From: Bacteroidia bacterium
GTDB taxonomy: Bacteria; Bacteroidota; Bacteroidia; Chitinophagales; Saprospiraceae
NCBI GenBank assembly: GCA_018680005.1
Contig: JAHHJQ010000078.1
Span: 1-50,923 of the forward strand
Reading direction: 5' to 3'
Length of the DNA stretch: 50,923 bases
The notes beneath the pieces were generated by a model. It was not told the origin of the DNA. It saw only the letters and a program-made list of their open reading frames with translations, and ran no database searches. Made by a program: the position numbers and the translations under genes. Position 1 is the first letter of the stretch. Every line of letters starts with the position of its first letter. Positions 39,300-48,859 of the stretch are shown here, piece by piece.

Positions 39300-39713
39300 A
39301 TGTATCCAGCTGAATTAGTAGCTCCAATGAGCAAAGAATTAACCGAGAATGGTTTTACGGGATTAAAGACTTCTAATGAAGTCAAAGATGTAATAGAAAA
39401 TATGAATGGAACAGCCTTATTGGTAATCAACTCTGTGTGCGGATGTGCTGCGGCCAACGCTCGCCCGGGAGCCAGAATTGCAATAATGAATGACAAAAAG
39501 CCGGACACTCTATATACTGTATTTGCAGGTGTAGATAAAGAAGCCACAGATATGGCAAGAGAATTTCTACTCCCATATCCTCCTTCATCACCAGCCATTG
39601 CCTTATTCAAAGATGGAAAATTAGTTCATTTTCTCGAAAGACATCATATCGAAGGAAGATCTGCCGGGTTGATTGCGGAAAATCTAAAGGAAGCATTCAA
39701 TCACTTTTGCTAA
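39300..39713 (+). CDS. Bacilliredoxin (BrxA/BrxB, YphP/YqiW family)
   Basis: 137 aa; NSVCGCAAANARPGA, SPAIALFKDGKLVHFLERHHIEG. Confidence 0.92.
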   Translation: MYPAELVAPMSKELTENGFTGLKTSNEVKDVIENMNGTALLVINSVCGCAAANARPGARIAIMNDKKPDTLYTVFAGVDKEATDMAREFLLPYPPSSPAIALFKDGKLVHFLERHHIEGRSAGLIAENLKEAFNHFC

Positions 39714-39734: not shown

Positions 39735-40298
39735 CTAATTGGATACCAGGGTATCTTTCAATAGTTTTTGTTGAATATTAAGTGAATTGACTATAGAGTG
39801 GACCGATATGGTCGCTCCAGAAATTCCGTCGATCTCTTTGCCAACACGCAGCTGACCGGCTTTATAACCGATGAATTGCTTGAGCCAACTTTTCGCGGTT
39901 ATCTCATATCCGTATTGAGAAGTATACTCCAATACTTTAACTCCTTTGATATGCCCTGACTTGTCATATAGTACTGAAAAGTAAAATTGCTCGTGTTCAG
40001 TTTCAGGGTCGATGTCACCAGGATTGATACACCCTCCAAGTTTACACCCATTTGCCAAAGTGACAATTCCATAACCTAAATGCTCATTATCGCTCCCATA
40101 GATACTGAAGACCTCTGAATTTATCATTAGGTCTTGTTCTATAGGCTGTGTTTCAAATTTTGCAACTTGAAAAGATTTGTTGATTTGTTTAATTATCTTC
40201 TTATGAAGATAATCTGGAAAATAAAACTGCATCAATCCGTTGTGATTCTGTTGGATCAAAAACGTGAATAAGAAACTATAGAAAACAATTCCCTTCAT
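39735..40298 (-). CDS. FMN-binding domain protein (RnfG/NqrC-like)
   Basis: 187 aa; signal segment, GHIKGVKVLEYTSQYGYEITAKSWLKQFIG, DGISGATISVHSIV flavinylation-like motif. Confidence 0.8.
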   Translation of the reverse strand: MKGIVFYSFLFTFLIQQNHNGLMQFYFPDYLHKKIIKQINKSFQVAKFETQPIEQDLMINSEVFSIYGSDNEHLGYGIVTLANGCKLGGCINPGDIDPETEHEQFYFSVLYDKSGHIKGVKVLEYTSQYGYEITAKSWLKQFIGYKAGQLRVGKEIDGISGATISVHSIVNSLNIQQKLLKDTLVSN

Positions 40299-40300
40299 AT

Positions 40301-41518
40301 TTATCTAAACCAAACTCCTACACCTAAATTCAATTGATTGGTTCCTGAATTCTGGCCTTTATTTTTTAAAAATTGATAGTCTGCTTTGAATGCAACTCCG
40401 TTACTCAATACCCAATCGATACCAATCGTTGTCGTTGTCAGGTGATATGCTTTATTTGCTTGAAGTTCTCCTTCAGTGGATGCATGGGTATTCAAATGTT
40501 CATATCGCACAAAAGGGAATAATTGAGAATTGGCATTTACTGCTCTCAATAGGTCATAAGCTGCTTCAAAATAATAACCAGAAATCCTACTTCCCATATC
40601 TGCCGAGGTGAAGGAATTATATTCAAGCGTATTTCCAAGACGAGCTGAATTGAATTGTCCTCTAAGTTTCAATCCTTTATAAGTATATCTCACATCCAGA
40701 CCTAGCATGGTAGTTTGAATTCTGGAACTATCCGCTCGATTTACCTCCAAAGGATTAGATTGATCCATTCCGTCATAAAGAGATGTTTGAGAATTACCAG
40801 TATATAATGATAACCCTAAGTTGAGTCCTCTTATTCCATAATATGAGATCTTACCTGTAAAATTCGGAGAAGTCATTATTGCTTCTGCACCTTTTTGTCT
40901 ACCGCCTCTAAGTCCGGAAGATCCTTTAAGCTTTCCTTGTCCATCATAGGAAGCGAATCCATTGACTAGATAAAATTGATAACTCAACGAAGCATCGATG
41001 ATATTTCCCTGCAAACCAAGCCCTATTTCCCTCCAGGTTGAAGGAACGATATATTTATCCAGTGTGGGCCTTTCTACGCCTAAAAATGTGGTTGGTTCAT
41101 GAAACTCGTTGACTATACCCATTGGAATCAACAAAAGCCCTGCCCTGAAATTCATCCATGGTTTGATCCTGTAATTGACGAAGGCTTGTTCTACAAAGAC
41201 CTCCTTGACATGCTCAAATTCAATCTCAGTTATAAAAGAAAGATTAGGATCAAAATTATAACCGAATAGCATGACCAACCTATGAACATCAACTGTTCCG
41301 TTTTGTCTAAGATCACCATTTAATGGTTGATTGAAATGAATGCCAGCATAACCTCCAATATTTAACTTTCCAGATTTATTTAGCAATTGAGTTGCCGTAT
41401 TACCAAGACTATCTGGATTCTGACTATATGATATATTGATTGAAAACGATATAAAGAATAAAAGAAGGAATCTACGACCAATATATTCCACTTCAAGCAG
41501 GTTTTTCAGGTTAATCAA
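40301..41518 (-). CDS. Porin-like outer membrane beta-barrel
   Basis: 405 aa; signal peptide, GGYAGIHFNQPLNGDLRQNGTVDVHRLVMLFGYNFD, C-terminal LGVGVWFR. Confidence 0.78.
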   Translation of the reverse strand: MINLKNLLEVEYIGRRFLLLFFISFSINISYSQNPDSLGNTATQLLNKSGKLNIGGYAGIHFNQPLNGDLRQNGTVDVHRLVMLFGYNFDPNLSFITEIEFEHVKEVFVEQAFVNYRIKPWMNFRAGLLLIPMGIVNEFHEPTTFLGVERPTLDKYIVPSTWREIGLGLQGNIIDASLSYQFYLVNGFASYDGQGKLKGSSGLRGGRQKGAEAIMTSPNFTGKISYYGIRGLNLGLSLYTGNSQTSLYDGMDQSNPLEVNRADSSRIQTTMLGLDVRYTYKGLKLRGQFNSARLGNTLEYNSFTSADMGSRISGYYFEAAYDLLRAVNANSQLFPFVRYEHLNTHASTEGELQANKAYHLTTTTIGIDWVLSNGVAFKADYQFLKNKGQNSGTNQLNLGVGVWFR

Positions 41519-41592: not shown

Positions 41593-41781
41593 ATTTTGTT
41601 TTGTCCGTATTATATGATTTCTATTCAGGAACGATTTCAAATGTAGCGCTGATCTTAACGAATGCTTTATTCAATCATGCCCTTGTCAACTGCTACACCG
41701 AAGGAAGTTAATTACACATTTGATGTATGTAATTGAAGAAGATAGGTAGTAAAATTTAAAGGTTTTTTGTTTGATAGGCAT

Positions 41782-41843
41782 AAAAAACCCTCGGCACTTG
41801 CCGAGGGATAAAAACAAAAAACAAACACTATGAACAAACACTA
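41782..41843. repeat. Tandem hairpin/A-rich repeat, unit A
   Basis: CCCTCGGC-ACTT-GCCGAGGG (41788-41807) then ATAAAAACAAAAAACAAACACTATGAACAAACACT; minus strand hairpin is followed by TTTTTT. Confidence 0.75.
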
Positions 41844-41933
41844 TTTCTTGTACAGATGCGCATAGGTATTTAGCGAGGAAGTAGGAGAGGTGTACCGACT
41901 TGATGTTTAGTAATAATTGAACTTGATTTTGGA

Positions 41934-41997
41934 AAAATCCCCTCGACACGTGTCGAGGGGAGTAAAACAAAAAACAAAAACTATGAACAAACACTCA
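41934..41997. repeat. Tandem hairpin/A-rich repeat, unit B
   Basis: CCCCTCGAC-ACGT-GTCGAGGGG (41939-41960) then AGTAAAACAAAAAACAAAAACTATGAACAAACACT; minus strand hairpin is followed by ATTTTT. Confidence 0.75.
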
Positions 41998-42268
41998 CCC
42001 TGTTCAAAATTCTTCTGTCTCTTCGTGGGGGAAAAGTATCTTTATTCAATAATGATTTGTAGGTATTAGCTAGTCTTGACAAGGCTATCAAGAATGGAAG
42101 GTGGTGTTTGAAAGCCTTTGTGTTTTGCTCATCTAATCAACAAAAACCAAGCCACCGGAGCATCAAGTTTTAAAGAAAAGTCAAAGAAAAAAACATATTT
42201 TTTTAGCTAATGCGTAATTCGCACAAGGTCTTCGAAATATGTCTGAATCCGCTTTAGATATATAATGT

Positions 42269-45200
42269 TCATCTATTTCTTACCAACATAACTTTGAGAC
42301 GATAAGAAAGCCAATACATTACCGGAACTACTACCAAAGTCAGAATCGTGGCGAACACGAGTCCGTAGATCACCGTCCACGCCATGGTTTGCCAAAATTG
42401 TGCAACATCTCCACCTATGTAAATATTCGGATCGAAATCACTGATCAGTGTCTTGAAATTGAAATTGAATGCCGTAGCCATCGGTAGTAATCCAAGAACT
42501 GTGGTCACGGCAGTTAAGATCACCGGCCGCAGTCGTGTTGCACCTCCTTTGATGATGGCTTCCTTGATATGCTCTTTTGACATTTTCATCATATTCGGAA
42601 TTCCAAGAGATATTCTTTTTCGTCGCATCATAAGATTGATATAATCCACCATGACTATCGCATTATTTACAACAATACCTGCCAAGGAAATAATACCTAT
42701 TCCGGACATAACAATTTCTATATCGCGACCAGAAGCAACATAACCCAAAAGTACACCGATCGTACTAAAGAGAACGGATAAAATAATGATGAATGGAGAT
42801 ATGACTGAGTTAAACTGGGCAACAAGAATGATAAATATCACAAAGATTGCCACCATAAATGCTGATGTAAGATATTCCATATTCTCCTTTTGTTCGAGCT
42901 GCTCGCCTCCAAAAGAATAGGTATATCCATCCGGCATATCATATTTGGATAGACTTCCCATTACGTTGGACACTACTTCATTGGCATTATAATTCTGAAG
43001 TACATTTGAGGACAACGATATGATTCGTTTTTGATCCTTACGCTTGATTTGAGAATATGTACTGGAATACTTAAAACTTGCAGCCGTAGATAAAGGAACA
43101 CTGCTAATTTTACCAGTTGCAGGAGATCGAAACACAGCCTTTTGATTTAGTAAATAGTCAATATCATTGCGATATTTCTTATCCATTCTTACCTGGATTG
43201 GATATTCATCCTCCCCTACTTTATACTGGGAAAGCTCTTTACCAAAAAGAGCCGTTCTGATGGCATCTGAAATCATGTAAGTTGAAAGCTCATATTTTCG
43301 CGCTGCTTCACGATCGATATCTATTAATAGTTCTGGTTTGCTTATGGATACATCTGCCTTTAGCTCTTCAATGCCTGGAATCTTTTGTTCCTCCAGATAT
43401 CTTTTCATATCATCAGCAAGTAAGGCGAGTTCATTTATTTCATCACCTGTAATCTCAATAAATATGGGTTTTCCAGTTGGGGGTCCTGAAGCATTCTTGT
43501 CCACTGTAATTTCCGCACCTGGAATTGAAGTGATAGAATTTCTTACAACACTGAGTACTTCTGTGGTATTGATACCTCCTCGTTCTTCAAAAGGTAGAAA
43601 TGAAATCGTAATCCTCGATTTATGTGGGGAGGATCCAAATTCCGGGTCACTGTTCGGATCTCCCGTGTTTTCACCAATTTGTGTTAGCACAGCTTCAACC
43701 CCATGTCTATAAGGTTCAAGTGACGCTTCAATTTCTGTTTCTAAAGAGGTCACCAGATGATTAGTGGCTTCAATATCCATCCCAATTGGTAATTCAATGA
43801 AGACATTGATATATGTAGGATCCGTATCCGGAAATAGTTTCTGTTTTGGCGGATTAGAAGCAAGAAGCATAGCTGAGAGTATCAGAATAACAAATGTCCC
43901 GGTGAATACTAATACCGGATTCCACCCTTTCAAAGCGACTGCAATAATACGGTTATACCCCCTTTCCATAGCTGGTACTATCTTTTGCTGAAAGAAAAGG
44001 GTAGCCTTTCTTAATATGAAAAAATTAACCAAAGTGATTGCGATAGTAATGACTAGAATATTTCGTAACCATAGAATGCCACCAAAATGAGAAGCAATAG
44101 CAATCAACATCATCATAGCAACACCCAGCAATATATTTTGACGTCTGCGCCTTTTCTCAGATTCTATTTCCACTCCGGTCTCTACTTTCATATATACCGC
44201 AGTGATCACAGGATTGATAACCAGGGCCACGAATAATGAAGAAGTAAGGACGACAACAAGTGTAATCGGCAAATAACGCATAAAGCTTCCCATAATACCC
44301 GGCCAAAAAACCAATGGTATAAAAGCTGCAAGTGTTGTTGCCGTGGAAGCAATAATCGGCATGGCTACCTCCCCTACCCCATATTTAGAAGCTTCGATAG
44401 CAGAATACCCTTCCGCCCTATATCTGTAAATATTTTCAACCACCACAATGCCATTATCGACCAGTAGCCCCAAAGCCAGTATGAGACCGAAAAGTATCAT
44501 GATATTAAGTGTGTAGCCAACAAGGCTCAATATTAAAATGCCCATTAACATTGAAAGCGGAATTGCCAGTCCGACAAATGAAGCATTGCGAATACCTAAA
44601 AAGAAAAGCAGTACAAGAATGACAAGTATGACACCAGAAATAATGCTGTTCTCTAATGTCGCTACAGAAGCTCGTGTCATGACCGAACCGTCATTGAAAG
44701 TGGTCACTTTAAGATCATCCGGCAAATCTGAAGCTTTCATCCTCGAGATTACCTCCTTTACCGCATCGGAAGCAGCTAAAAGATTGGCTCCATCTCTTTT
44801 TATGATATCAAGTGAGATTACCGGTTTCTGATCTGCTCTTGCAATACTTGTTTTGTCAGCATAAGTGAATTCAACTAAGGCTACATCCCGGAGATAGATG
44901 GGCTTTTGGTTTTCACTTTTGATAATAACATTTTGGATATCCTTTATCGATTTAAACTCTCCGAGAATTCTGACTGTTCTTCTGAAATCGTTATTGAGTA
45001 GTTCGCCTCCTGACATGGTGATATTCTCGGCGCTTATAGCATTTTCAATATCACCAAAGCTCAATCCAAAAGCCTGCATTTTAGCGAAATCAACATTGAT
45101 CTGAACCTCCTTATCCAGATCACCTTTGATCTGAACCTCAGATATTTCTCTAACCCGATTCTCTATTTCATCTGAGATATCCTCGGCATATTCTTTGAGT

Positions 45201-45688
45201 TGATCAATCGAATAGTCGCCCGCAACATTAATAACCATTATCGGAAATTCAGAAACATCTACATCCAAGATTTCAGGATCTTGTGTCAAATCTGTAGGTA
45301 ATTCTTGCATCGCCCGATCCACCGCATCTTTTACCGACCTTTTGGCTGATTCTATTACAACATCTGATTCGAATTCAGCGATGATTAATGAATAATCTTG
45401 TAAAGAAGATGACTTAACACTTTTAAGACCAGAGATTGAAGCAATCTCTTTTTCCAGGGGTCTAGAAATCAGATTTTCTATATCCCGAGGTGAATTACCA
45501 AAATAGACGGTATTCACGAATATCTGAGGAAAAGACACCTCCGGATATTGCTCTTTCGGCATTGTATTATAGCTCCTTAGACCAAAAAGGATGATCATAA
45601 AGGCAAGTATGAAAATACTTGTTCGATTGTCTACTGCGAACGAGGACAACCCAAAAGTTCTATGATGTTTCAGAGCTGGGTCTTTCAT
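42269..45688 (-). CDS. RND-family efflux transporter permease
   Basis: 1139 aa AcrB/CusA superfamily; LGLLVDNGIVVVENIYR, GGEQLEQKENM, IVVNNAIVMVDYIN. Confidence 0.95.
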   Translation of the reverse strand: MKDPALKHHRTFGLSSFAVDNRTSIFILAFMIILFGLRSYNTMPKEQYPEVSFPQIFVNTVYFGNSPRDIENLISRPLEKEIASISGLKSVKSSSLQDYSLIIAEFESDVVIESAKRSVKDAVDRAMQELPTDLTQDPEILDVDVSEFPIMVINVAGDYSIDQLKEYAEDISDEIENRVREISEVQIKGDLDKEVQINVDFAKMQAFGLSFGDIENAISAENITMSGGELLNNDFRRTVRILGEFKSIKDIQNVIIKSENQKPIYLRDVALVEFTYADKTSIARADQKPVISLDIIKRDGANLLAASDAVKEVISRMKASDLPDDLKVTTFNDGSVMTRASVATLENSIISGVILVILVLLFFLGIRNASFVGLAIPLSMLMGILILSLVGYTLNIMILFGLILALGLLVDNGIVVVENIYRYRAEGYSAIEASKYGVGEVAMPIIASTATTLAAFIPLVFWPGIMGSFMRYLPITLVVVLTSSLFVALVINPVITAVYMKVETGVEIESEKRRRRQNILLGVAMMMLIAIASHFGGILWLRNILVITIAITLVNFFILRKATLFFQQKIVPAMERGYNRIIAVALKGWNPVLVFTGTFVILILSAMLLASNPPKQKLFPDTDPTYINVFIELPIGMDIEATNHLVTSLETEIEASLEPYRHGVEAVLTQIGENTGDPNSDPEFGSSPHKSRITISFLPFEERGGINTTEVLSVVRNSITSIPGAEITVDKNASGPPTGKPIFIEITGDEINELALLADDMKRYLEEQKIPGIEELKADVSISKPELLIDIDREAARKYELSTYMISDAIRTALFGKELSQYKVGEDEYPIQVRMDKKYRNDIDYLLNQKAVFRSPATGKISSVPLSTAASFKYSSTYSQIKRKDQKRIISLSSNVLQNYNANEVVSNVMGSLSKYDMPDGYTYSFGGEQLEQKENMEYLTSAFMVAIFVIFIILVAQFNSVISPFIIILSVLFSTIGVLLGYVASGRDIEIVMSGIGIISLAGIVVNNAIVMVDYINLMMRRKRISLGIPNMMKMSKEHIKEAIIKGGATRLRPVILTAVTTVLGLLPMATAFNFNFKTLISDFDPNIYIGGDVAQFWQTMAWTVIYGLVFATILTLVVVPVMYWLSYRLKVMLVRNR

Positions 45689-46851
45689 CCGTCGATATTT
45701 TCATTCATGATCTCTACTTCCTGTTGATCATTTACCATTCTTGATCCGTCAATTATGAGTTCATCACCATCTGCAAGACCTTCGGTTATTACCAATTCAT
45801 TTTCTACACTTTCACCGATTTGGATATACCTTTTTTGAGCAATCATTTTTCCGCTTGAATCCTGGTCCACCACGAAAACATAGTTGGAACCATTGATCTC
45901 CTGTTGTACCAATTCACTTGAAATTGCTATGACATCCTTTGCCTCATAATCTGGTAAGTATGCAATGACCATCAGATTCGGCTTTATTCTTCCACCCTCA
46001 TTTGAAATAGCAGCTTCAACATTAAATGTTCTATTTCCCGGATCTATCATTCTTCCGATATCTGTGATTCTTACATCTTTTTCATATTCCAAAGTTGGAA
46101 TTTCAATATGTATCTTGTTTCCTTTCTTCACAGCCTTTAAGTACTTCTCAGGTACATCGATAGACACTTTTACTTTGCTGGTATTTAGTATTTGAACAAT
46201 TGGTGCACCTGGCGAAGCCATCTCGCCAGATTTAAGAAAGGATTGATCGACCACACCTGAAATTGGCGCATAAATGTTTGCTTTGGTTAGGTTAAATCCA
46301 AGGGTTTCCAAAGACTTTTCAAGACGCTCCTTATCGTTTTTTGATTGTAAATACTGTATCTCCGATCCTATGTTTTGTTTCCAAAGTCGTTCCTGTCTGG
46401 TAAACACTTCTACAGCCAATTCCAATGACTTTTCAACCTCTTCAACTTGTTTTCGCATAGATTGCATATCTACTATGGCGATTCGGGATCCGCGTCGTAC
46501 ATAGTCACCTTCCTTCACATAAACACGAGTGATCCGACCTCCGATCTCCGAAGAAGCCATGACAATGTCATCGGCTGCGATTGAACCTTGAATTTCAACA
46601 AATCGCTTTATATCTTGTGGTAGAATGCGGCTTGTAGTAATCTTCTTTAGTTCCTGAACTTTGGGTTCACTTTCAGAAATATCCTCTTCCAGTCTGAGAA
46701 TCAATTCTTCCAATGATTTCATTTCTTGTTTCTTCTCCGCCAGCAATTGCTTCTTTTCAGGTAATCCAGGAGGATATTCGGTATTTAATGATTTACGATC
46801 CGAACAAGACCAGAATGAAATGAATATTATATAAGCTATGATTGGTTTCAT
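45685..46851 (-). CDS. RND efflux periplasmic adaptor subunit
   Basis: 388 aa; lipobox ISFWSC, VYVKEGDYVRRGSRIAIVD, IYAPISGVVDQSFLKSGEM; ATGA overlap with the permease. Confidence 0.93.
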   Translation of the reverse strand: MKPIIAYIIFISFWSCSDRKSLNTEYPPGLPEKKQLLAEKKQEMKSLEELILRLEEDISESEPKVQELKKITTSRILPQDIKRFVEIQGSIAADDIVMASSEIGGRITRVYVKEGDYVRRGSRIAIVDMQSMRKQVEEVEKSLELAVEVFTRQERLWKQNIGSEIQYLQSKNDKERLEKSLETLGFNLTKANIYAPISGVVDQSFLKSGEMASPGAPIVQILNTSKVKVSIDVPEKYLKAVKKGNKIHIEIPTLEYEKDVRITDIGRMIDPGNRTFNVEAAISNEGGRIKPNLMVIAYLPDYEAKDVIAISSELVQQEINGSNYVFVVDQDSSGKMIAQKRYIQIGESVENELVITEGLADGDELIIDGSRMVNDQQEVEIMNENIDG

Positions 46852-46890
46852 TGTAATAATTGAAATTTTAGGGTAGTCAATAATTGGTAT

Positions 46891-48210
46891 CTATATGCCA
46901 AGCGCTGTATTCAAATCCAATCTTGCTTTTAGTAAATCATATTTGGCTAAAAGATGATTTTGCTGTGCTTGATATAGGCTTTGCTCAGCCTGATTGATTT
47001 CAATACTACTCCCTACACCTTCGCGATATTTGATTTGAGTTGTTCTATAAATTCTTTCTGCCAAAACAAGATTCTTGTTTCTTTCTGCAAGATTATTTAA
47101 AGCTGTATTCACTTCATTTTGAGCATTGGTGATTTCCAGATTGATACCATCGATAAGTTGCTGTTGTTGGATCTTCTGGATTTCCAAATCCAACTTGGCT
47201 CTTTCCAAGTCTGCCTTTTTGCCTAAACCGGAAAATATTGGAACATTTATGCTGATCCCGGCGGCTGAGGTTGGATTCCAAATTGCCGAACGTAAATTGT
47301 CCCCCTGACCAATTTCCTGTAAATTGACAAATGCCCGAACACTTGGCAGAAATGCCGTTTTCTTGGATTGCACATTTAATTCTGCAAGTGAAACTCCCAA
47401 TTCCGAAACGCGATATTCTGACCGGCCCAGATGCAATTGATCGGTGTGAACACGTAAATTAGCATATCGCTCAAGTAAGTTTTCCAGATTGTCCGAAAAC
47501 TCTATTTCAGTATTTGCTTGTAAGCCCATTTGATACTTCAAAACCAGTTTGGTTTGAACCTGTCGCTGTTCCAGATTGGTCATTTCGGCTTTCAGATTTG
47601 AAAGAGACAATTCCAAACGGTCTACATCCAATTTTTCCACAAAACCTCCCTTGTATAGAGCTGATGTTTCCCGGTAAAGATTCTGAAGATTATCTATATT
47701 CTTACTCAGTATTTGGATATTCTCCTGAATAATCAAATTTGGCAAATAGGCATCAACAATATTGTTAGTTACATTGGTCTGGATTTGTTCAAATTCCTTT
47801 TCTGTAAACTCTTTAAATTTCCTTGACGCTCGGAGAGCAACGAGGTAGTTGGCATCAAAAAGAAGGGTATTTAGATCCAAGGCACCTAACATATTGTTCT
47901 TTGTCCCAAATTGTAGCTCGGCAAATTCGCCTTCCATAGCATCATCGTCGATAAATTGAGCCGGAACCAATGATACTGGCAAATACAGATTTCGGGTATA
48001 ATTGAAATTCGCCTCGAGGGTGGGCAATCCGATGGCTCGATTCTGGTAAATTTGTTGCTGCGCATCCAATATTTTGAGTTGTCCCCTGCGGATCTCTGTA
48101 TGATTTTCTAACCCATAAGCTATAGCTTCTTCCAAAGTAAATGAACGACTCTGAGAATTGATATCTCCTATGAATAGAAGCAATACTAGTAAGATCATGT
48201 ATGCTCTCAT
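46891..48210 (-). CDS. TolC-family outer membrane protein
   Basis: 439 aa; signal peptide, efflux-protein coiled-coil repeats; TAATG coupling to tetR. Confidence 0.92.
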   Translation of the reverse strand: MRAYMILLVLLLFIGDINSQSRSFTLEEAIAYGLENHTEIRRGQLKILDAQQQIYQNRAIGLPTLEANFNYTRNLYLPVSLVPAQFIDDDAMEGEFAELQFGTKNNMLGALDLNTLLFDANYLVALRASRKFKEFTEKEFEQIQTNVTNNIVDAYLPNLIIQENIQILSKNIDNLQNLYRETSALYKGGFVEKLDVDRLELSLSNLKAEMTNLEQRQVQTKLVLKYQMGLQANTEIEFSDNLENLLERYANLRVHTDQLHLGRSEYRVSELGVSLAELNVQSKKTAFLPSVRAFVNLQEIGQGDNLRSAIWNPTSAAGISINVPIFSGLGKKADLERAKLDLEIQKIQQQQLIDGINLEITNAQNEVNTALNNLAERNKNLVLAERIYRTTQIKYREGVGSSIEINQAEQSLYQAQQNHLLAKYDLLKARLDLNTALGI

Positions 48211-48815
48211 TAGTCTTCGATTTTTTTAAACCTTTGAATTCCGGTAGGGTTCATCATGCCCAACATGTGGTGCGTGATAAACTGTTCGTAGAGTTCAGCT
48301 CTCGGAAATTCTTCAATTGGAAAAAGCTCATTATCAATAAGTACTGAAATTCTAGCTACATAAAGTCTTGCAATGATCCTGGCATCCATGTCCAGTCTAT
48401 AGTGTCCTTCATTCTGTCCCCTCAAAACATTCTCAAAAGCAAATTCATGGATGAATCCATTGTTAAATTCTTGAATAAGGTTCCAGATATCCGGATAATA
48501 TTTTTGCACTTCATAAATCAGAGACGGCTTGTGTTTCCGTAAAATGCTAATTATGAATTTTGAATTAGTGACCATTTCCTCCACAGCGTCATTAGTTTCG
48601 GCCCTTGCACGATTGATAAAAGATTTCTGTTCATCAAGATGATGCATTAGCGCTGCCCTAAGTAGCTCCTGTTTGCTATCTACAGAATTGTAGAGTGTTT
48701 TTTTAGATATTCCCAAAGCACTGGATATATCATCCATACTCACGCTTTTGACACCATATTTCATGAAAAAGTCCACCGCTTTTGCTATGATCTTTTGCTC
48801 CAAGGAAGTTGCCAT
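48210..48815 (-). CDS. TetR/AcrR-family transcriptional regulator
   Basis: HTH: MATSLEQKIIAKAVDFFMKYGVKSVSMDDISSALGISKKTLYNSVDSKQELL; start 48815 preferred to 48851. Confidence 0.93.
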   Translation of the reverse strand: MATSLEQKIIAKAVDFFMKYGVKSVSMDDISSALGISKKTLYNSVDSKQELLRAALMHHLDEQKSFINRARAETNDAVEEMVTNSKFIISILRKHKPSLIYEVQKYYPDIWNLIQEFNNGFIHEFAFENVLRGQNEGHYRLDMDARIIARLYVARISVLIDNELFPIEEFPRAELYEQFITHHMLGMMNPTGIQRFKKIED

Positions 48816-48831
48816 AATTGTAAAGAACGAT

Positions 48832-48859
48832 GGAAACTTTACAAGTATCAATAGTTTCC
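48832..48859. promoter_or_regulatory. Candidate TetR operator
   Basis: GGAAACT-N14-AGTTTCC perfect inverted repeat just upstream of tetR. Confidence 0.5.

Follow-up and report, generated by a model that had tools for sequence, protein, structure and literature searches.

A family-wide pair of predicted tandem small RNA genes with a start-codon-complementary 5' segment in Saprospiraceae

The 50,923-nt stretch of DNA analysed here (the window; contig C11 in a 436-contig, 87% complete draft assembly totalling 3.7 Mb) carries two related units that probably represent tandem sibling sRNA genes on the minus strand, arranged in the order B then A, whose seed would block translation start regions in trans. 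Comparison with their relatives fixes the strand of these units, their architecture and terminator, their conservation and stem pairing, their family-wide distribution and their independence from the neighbouring genes. In minus-strand form they read 5'-(GGGUGA)GUGUUUGUUCAUAGUNUUUGUUUUUUGUUUUG-covarying hairpin-UUUUUU-3'. Judged from sequence, this would be a pair of sRNA genes new to science and spread through the family, belonging to a general kind that is already known but with a seed of unusual design.

An earlier note on this DNA had described two units, each consisting of a GC hairpin followed by an A-rich tract on the plus strand. Both are present as described, with a spacing of 153 nt rather than the 152 nt given previously. 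Read along the plus strand, AAAACAAAAAACAAANACTATGAACAAACACT comes after each hairpin, and the tracts at 41805-41842 and 41958-41995 share 92% identity across 38 nt. The stem difference that had been pointed out, a G-C pair in A as against an A-T pair in B, is real, and both hairpins do run into a T-tract on the minus strand. In both the window and the 3.7 Mb genome there are two occurrences of the 32-nt tract and no more, in the genome even at three mismatches, with zero occurrences expected by chance in the shuffled window. The RNA folding z-scores are -4.4 for B and -5.1 for A. The 5' ends of the predicted genes in Table 1 are putative, having been set at the edge of conservation. A mobile repeat or REP-like element was also considered for this region and ruled out, given a single locus per genome and two copies in 3.7 Mb.

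Table 1. Coordinates of the predicted sRNA genes, their parts and the surrounding features in the window
Feature	Coordinates	Strand	Remarks
Predicted sRNA gene B, upstream copy, ~69 nt	41933..42001	-	5'-AGGGUGAGUGUUUGUUCAUAGUUUUUGUUUUUUGUUUUACUCCCC...; R1 E=3.6e-14, R2 E=2.0e-7; kept across Saprospiraceae
Putative unstructured seed B, complement of ...CAAAAACTATGAACAAACACTCACCC	41964..42000	-	invariant columns; 98 type-B units
Terminator hairpin B, 10 bp, loop ACGT	41938..41961	-	U-run 41937-41933
Predicted sRNA gene A, downstream copy, ~62 nt	41782..41843	-	5'-UAGUGUUUGUUCAUAGUGUUUGUUUUUUGUUUUUAUCCCUCGG...; R1 E=1.3e-12, R2 E=3.3e-7
Putative unstructured seed A, complement of ...CAAACACTATGAACAAACACT	41811..41842	-	invariant alignment columns
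Terminator hairpin A, 8 bp, 4-nt loop ACTT	41788..41807	-	U-run 41787-41782
MNKHYFLYRCA ORF, 11 aa	41830..41865	+	judged an antisense by-product; frame and length not conserved
MNKHSPCSKFFCLFVGEKYLYSIMICRY ORF, 28 aa	41983..42069	+	judged a by-product
RND efflux pump (AcrB type), upstream neighbour	42269..45688	-	
405-aa ORF, downstream neighbour	40301..41518	-	porin-like according to the earlier note; no Pfam match
137-aa gene common to 14 related loci	39300..39713	+	synteny anchor

Inspection of the relatives shows an intrinsic terminator on the minus strand in 200 of 208 distinct units, the remaining eight including ones cut by contig ends. Further, across 135 distinct relatives, the eight bases beyond the hairpin include a mean of 6.6 T for the minus strand versus 0.5 T for the plus strand. 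These minus-only T-runs and terminators point to minus-strand RNAs with a U/G-rich unstructured 5' part followed by a terminator. In the same 135 relatives the hairpin sequence drifts freely while its pairing is kept: standard pairs make up 91-100% at stem positions 5-7 as opposed to the 44-49% expected for independent arms, with GC, CG, TA and AT pairs all in use, though the absolute level of covariation is biased because the stems counted had been chosen for being paired (of 144 units, 9 did not pass the stem criterion). In the MAFFT alignment A1 the stems are out of register with one another, so that RNAalifold returned no hairpin, and per-hairpin counting was used instead, together with a trimmed alignment with shortened loops. 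In the latter, which was likewise built on stems chosen for being paired, each of the six pairs shows changes in both of its arms, and covariation scores 1.04, compared with 0.23 for shuffled and at most 0.25 for slid versions. The unit counts and the fold display a putative 5' unstructured seed succeeded by an intrinsic terminator, as in the Bacteroides sRNAs FopS and GibS (see below), and each unit behaves as a trans-encoded sRNA gene would, being autonomous, intergenic, equipped with its own terminator and conserved whatever its neighbours. The minus-strand option in the earlier note, tandem paralogous small RNAs or terminators, is hence supported by the relatives, the stem covariation, the minus-only T-runs and the conserved U-rich core, with terminators alone kept as a rival reading that is weighed below.

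A check of the host genome and its relatives, which had been suggested along with that proposal, recovered the two host copies and relatives across Saprospiraceae. The 26-nt core pattern is found in at least 118 stretches of the species-representative collection, nearly all of them titled Saprospiraceae; among the matches listed, a few are titled Lewinella, Chitinophagales or Sphingobacteriales MAGs, and the pattern mostly occurs twice per stretch. A first covariance model (R1) detected the units in 64 of 150 Saprospiraceae genomes and a structure-aware second model (R2) in 104 of 248, covering 56 of 112 genera, typically with two and up to five copies per genome at a single locus. Outside Saprospiraceae, about 240 genomes of the class gave only six borderline matches (E 3e-4 to 9e-4). 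On account of this survey inside and outside the family, the core appears to belong essentially to Saprospiraceae. In the other 144 Saprospiraceae genomes it may be truly absent, or it may have been missed owing to divergence and strict filters. In line with the earlier note, which did not recognise the motif as a named family, no family in Rfam 15 reaches its threshold, and curated and permissive settings alike yielded no credible match, the best low-E matches being due to chance. The literature that was searched contained no report of sRNAs in Saprospiraceae.

The units fall into two types, with type B reading GGGUGAGUGUUUGUUCAUAGUUUUUG and type A reading UAGUGUU(U)GUUCAUAGUGUUUG. They are usually paired, the order B then A is seen in 58 loci, and the spacing between adjoining units ranges from 62 to 936 nt. 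Because of this range of spacing, and because the terminators interrupt it, a 102-aa minus-strand ORF with a GTG start that spans both units in the window (41686-41994) was rejected as a coding gene. In some genomes a single locus carries an array of three to five units, such as a BABA array (L158), three type-B copies (L159) or one B with three A copies, the sequence 5' of each A copy being repeated as well (L157). In the nearly complete genome L156, the units lie 62 nt apart, immediately before pdxH. The occurrence of paired copies with unlike 5' ends (GGGUGAGUG in B and UAGUG in A) suggests overlapping, non-identical sets of targets or overlapping, non-identical control.

A third conserved element, consisting of AAGGGTAGAGTGTTTTTTATATGTTTNAAT and a variable hairpin mostly followed by a T-run, was observed in L011, L013, L014, L021, L028, L033, L039, L071, L086, L100 and L102. 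It sits upstream of A, and between B and A where both exist, and is absent from the window. By its sequence it resembles a third member of the sRNA array that has diverged. In L013 and L028, a downstream AAACACTC/AAACTCT could pair with the GAGTGTTT of this element.

Regarding the start of transcription, the canonical TAnnTTTG (-7)/-33 promoter was not found directly upstream of the units; the tRNA-Asn genes in related loci do have a TAnnTTTG promoter. Instead, enrichment was seen for a TAAAGA-like box, at -11 to -8 of the type-A core (61 counts versus about 5 expected, a figure partly inflated by alignment rows) and at -20 to -16 of the type-B core, the window's own copies having degenerate TAAAGA boxes only. 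Either another sigma factor would be used, or the RNAs would be processed from longer transcripts.

The commonest neighbour of the units in related loci is a gene which, from its sequence, we take to be pdxH (pyridoxamine phosphate oxidase). In neighbourhood counts from which short alignment rows had been filtered out, 41 of 94 loci have it as the next gene downstream, in the same orientation and 78-521 nt away; nine have it elsewhere in the locus, and in 44 it is missing. It is probably the ancestral neighbour of the units. In the window, the 405-aa ORF and an FMN-binding-domain gene replace pdxH, standing (40301..41518 and 39735-40298) where related loci carry it; the 137-aa ORF next to them is kept, which establishes synteny between this locus and those linked to pdxH. 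The PdxH C-terminal domain PF10590 was not detected in the 87% complete host genome, for which gene loss or an assembly gap is a possible cause. The RNA locus hence persists where its most frequent neighbour has gone, a point against its being a cis leader. On the other flank, 42269-48210 and 48210-48851 of the window encompass an RND pump operon that is headed by a TetR-type regulator and includes an adaptor and an outer-membrane protein of the OEP type.

The nearly invariant core is the complement of the start region CAAANACUAUGAACAAACAC, and its complement CAAAACAAAAAACAAANACUAUGAACAAACACU comprises an A-rich leader and an AUG. Near-exact complements of the core are found as real gene starts in sister families, namely those of genes that, from their translated starts, are presumably recA (L175) and a YceI-like gene (L174). 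In a target test, 689 start regions were compared with coding interiors, using 50 CAU-fixed shuffles per seed. The difference between start regions and coding interiors was -0.94 for seed A versus -0.18 +/- 0.31 for its shuffles and -0.33 for seed B versus +0.62 +/- 0.30, with 0 of 50 shuffles as low in either case; this is modest evidence because the absolute pairing with start regions is no better than that of the CAU-fixed shuffles, 35 and 26 of 50, respectively, being as good. The preference of both seeds for start regions over coding interiors is accordingly suggestive only. The host genome shows no excess of the exact anti-AUG word AAACTATGAA (18 occurrences versus 26 for the reversed control), and only a few of its sites are gene starts; therefore, no target is named.

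In the mechanism proposed for these genes, each unit would give rise to a transcript of ~60-70 nt, in which a long, unstructured, U/G-rich 5' part that includes GUUCAUAGU precedes a GC-rich terminator hairpin. The 5' part would serve as a seed pairing with translation initiation regions, such that its CAU would pair with the AUG and its U/G-rich flank with the A-rich leader, which would serve these bacteria in place of a Shine-Dalgarno sequence. This pairing would block ribosome binding on several target mRNAs. An RRM-type RNA-binding protein might assist, a helper proposed because the host genome encodes two RRM proteins and no Hfq was detected in it at 87% completeness.

The near-absolute conservation of the core, the arrays of up to five copies at one locus, the want of an evident enriched target word and the two encoded RRM proteins would also be consistent with sRNAs whose core is a protein-binding site, i.e., CsrB-like sponge or protein-sequestering RNAs in which the arrays multiply the sites and the likeness to a start codon is incidental. 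However, the seeds favour start regions over coding interiors, the core complement occurs as real gene starts in sister families, and the terminators stand one to a unit, which is not how a sponge RNA with many sites is built; such a role is hence regarded as unlikely. It is improbable that pdxH is controlled in cis by the units as its leader (attenuator), with tandem terminators in its 5' region. While pdxH is the probable ancestral neighbour and directly follows on the same strand in a good part of the loci, the constant same-strand downstream gene of a leader or riboswitch is not seen, over half of the loci lack pdxH as a neighbour, the units persist in the window with pdxH absent there and undetected genome-wide, and no alternative antiterminator fold was seen. 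The hairpins are good terminators, 28 of 97 related loci have an RND gene upstream in the same orientation, and no standard promoter directly precedes the units, all of which would fit plain terminators of the upstream operon, here that of the RND pump, giving at most 3'-UTR-derived sRNAs. Yet a bare terminator would not hold a core of 26-32 nt near-invariant while its hairpin drifts, and the upstream genes vary and occur on either strand, making this improbable as well.

The earlier note had offered as its other option that the units are attenuator or leader-peptide cassettes of the plus strand, encoding peptides that begin with MNKH. The two ORFs exist in the window (11 and 28 aa), their ATG is well placed for a start in Bacteroidota, and 118 of 140 distinct ORFs share MNKH, but they are not conserved as peptides. 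Across these 140, the frame has a median of 11.5 codons, random lengths ranging from 4 to 161 and no conservation past codon 4-6, and in 22 a 1-nt indel inside the putative ORF shifts the frame to MNN. Neither the in-frame conserved ORF nor the plus-strand terminator of a peptide-leader attenuator was found, there is no plus-strand U-run, and the plus-strand neighbour genes vary among loci. As it is the nucleotide core and not the reading frame that is conserved, a plus-strand coding function is ruled out, and the cassette proposal is scarcely credible.

The preferred reading, sibling sRNA genes acting in trans, has several precedents. In GibS of Bacteroides thetaiotaomicron, 30-50 nt at the unstructured 5' end form an extended seed, which base-pairs over start codons (PMC7366714). 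Repression of susC mRNAs by the FopS paralogs takes place close to the start codon and is antagonised by the RRM protein RbpB, and the tandem sibling sRNAs OmrA/OmrB, LhrC1-7 and Qrr are listed in the same study (PMC11697453). Like the window family, FopS comprises multicopy paralogous Bacteroidota sRNAs with a single-stranded 5' stretch and a Rho-independent terminator, for which pairing close to start codons is proposed; RRM proteins figure in both settings, with no Hfq detected in the window's host. However, FopS is found in Bacteroidaceae with 12-15 copies per genome at multiple loci and canonical promoters, whereas the window family belongs to Saprospiraceae, usually with two copies (up to five) at one tandem locus and no canonical promoter seen. 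GibS shares the extended unstructured 5' seed across start codons but is a single intergenic Bacteroides sRNA with two seed regions. The likeness to FopS and GibS concerns how the units would work, FopS having been compared by its published description. OmrA/OmrB, LhrC1-7 and Qrr are comparable in that paralogs lie side by side or are repeated, have a seed in common and carry their own terminators. The seeds of LhrC are C-rich and aimed at Shine-Dalgarno sequences; unlike these, the core of the present units is rich in U and G, and its aim would be a start region that is A-rich and free of a Shine-Dalgarno sequence.

A broader proposal, put forward tentatively and with more doubt than conviction, is that the seed of this family-wide sRNA pair is a generic anti-start sequence for mRNAs that have an A-rich leader and an AUG in place of a Shine-Dalgarno sequence. 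If true, the pair would be a Bacteroidota counterpart of anti-Shine-Dalgarno sRNAs. Separately, another family of Bacteroidia was observed to have a conserved sRNA-like element, AAGTCGCATTTGTTTCATATGTTTTTGTTTATATCCC-hairpin-T-run, in four of five sampled genomes (L221-L224, at about position 1500, in minus-type orientation), which has the same design as the window units with a CAUAUG core. Should the anti-start reading hold, this UUUGUUUCAUAUGUUUUUGUUU-terminator element would be a second example.

To our knowledge, sRNAs outside Bacteroides are almost unknown in Bacteroidota, a phylum whose mRNAs mostly lack Shine-Dalgarno sequences. The covariance model is ready for use in annotating the abundant, mostly uncultured Saprospiraceae, and a conserved pair with a start-codon-complementary seed would offer a route to asking how antisense regulation finds its targets among Shine-Dalgarno-free mRNAs.
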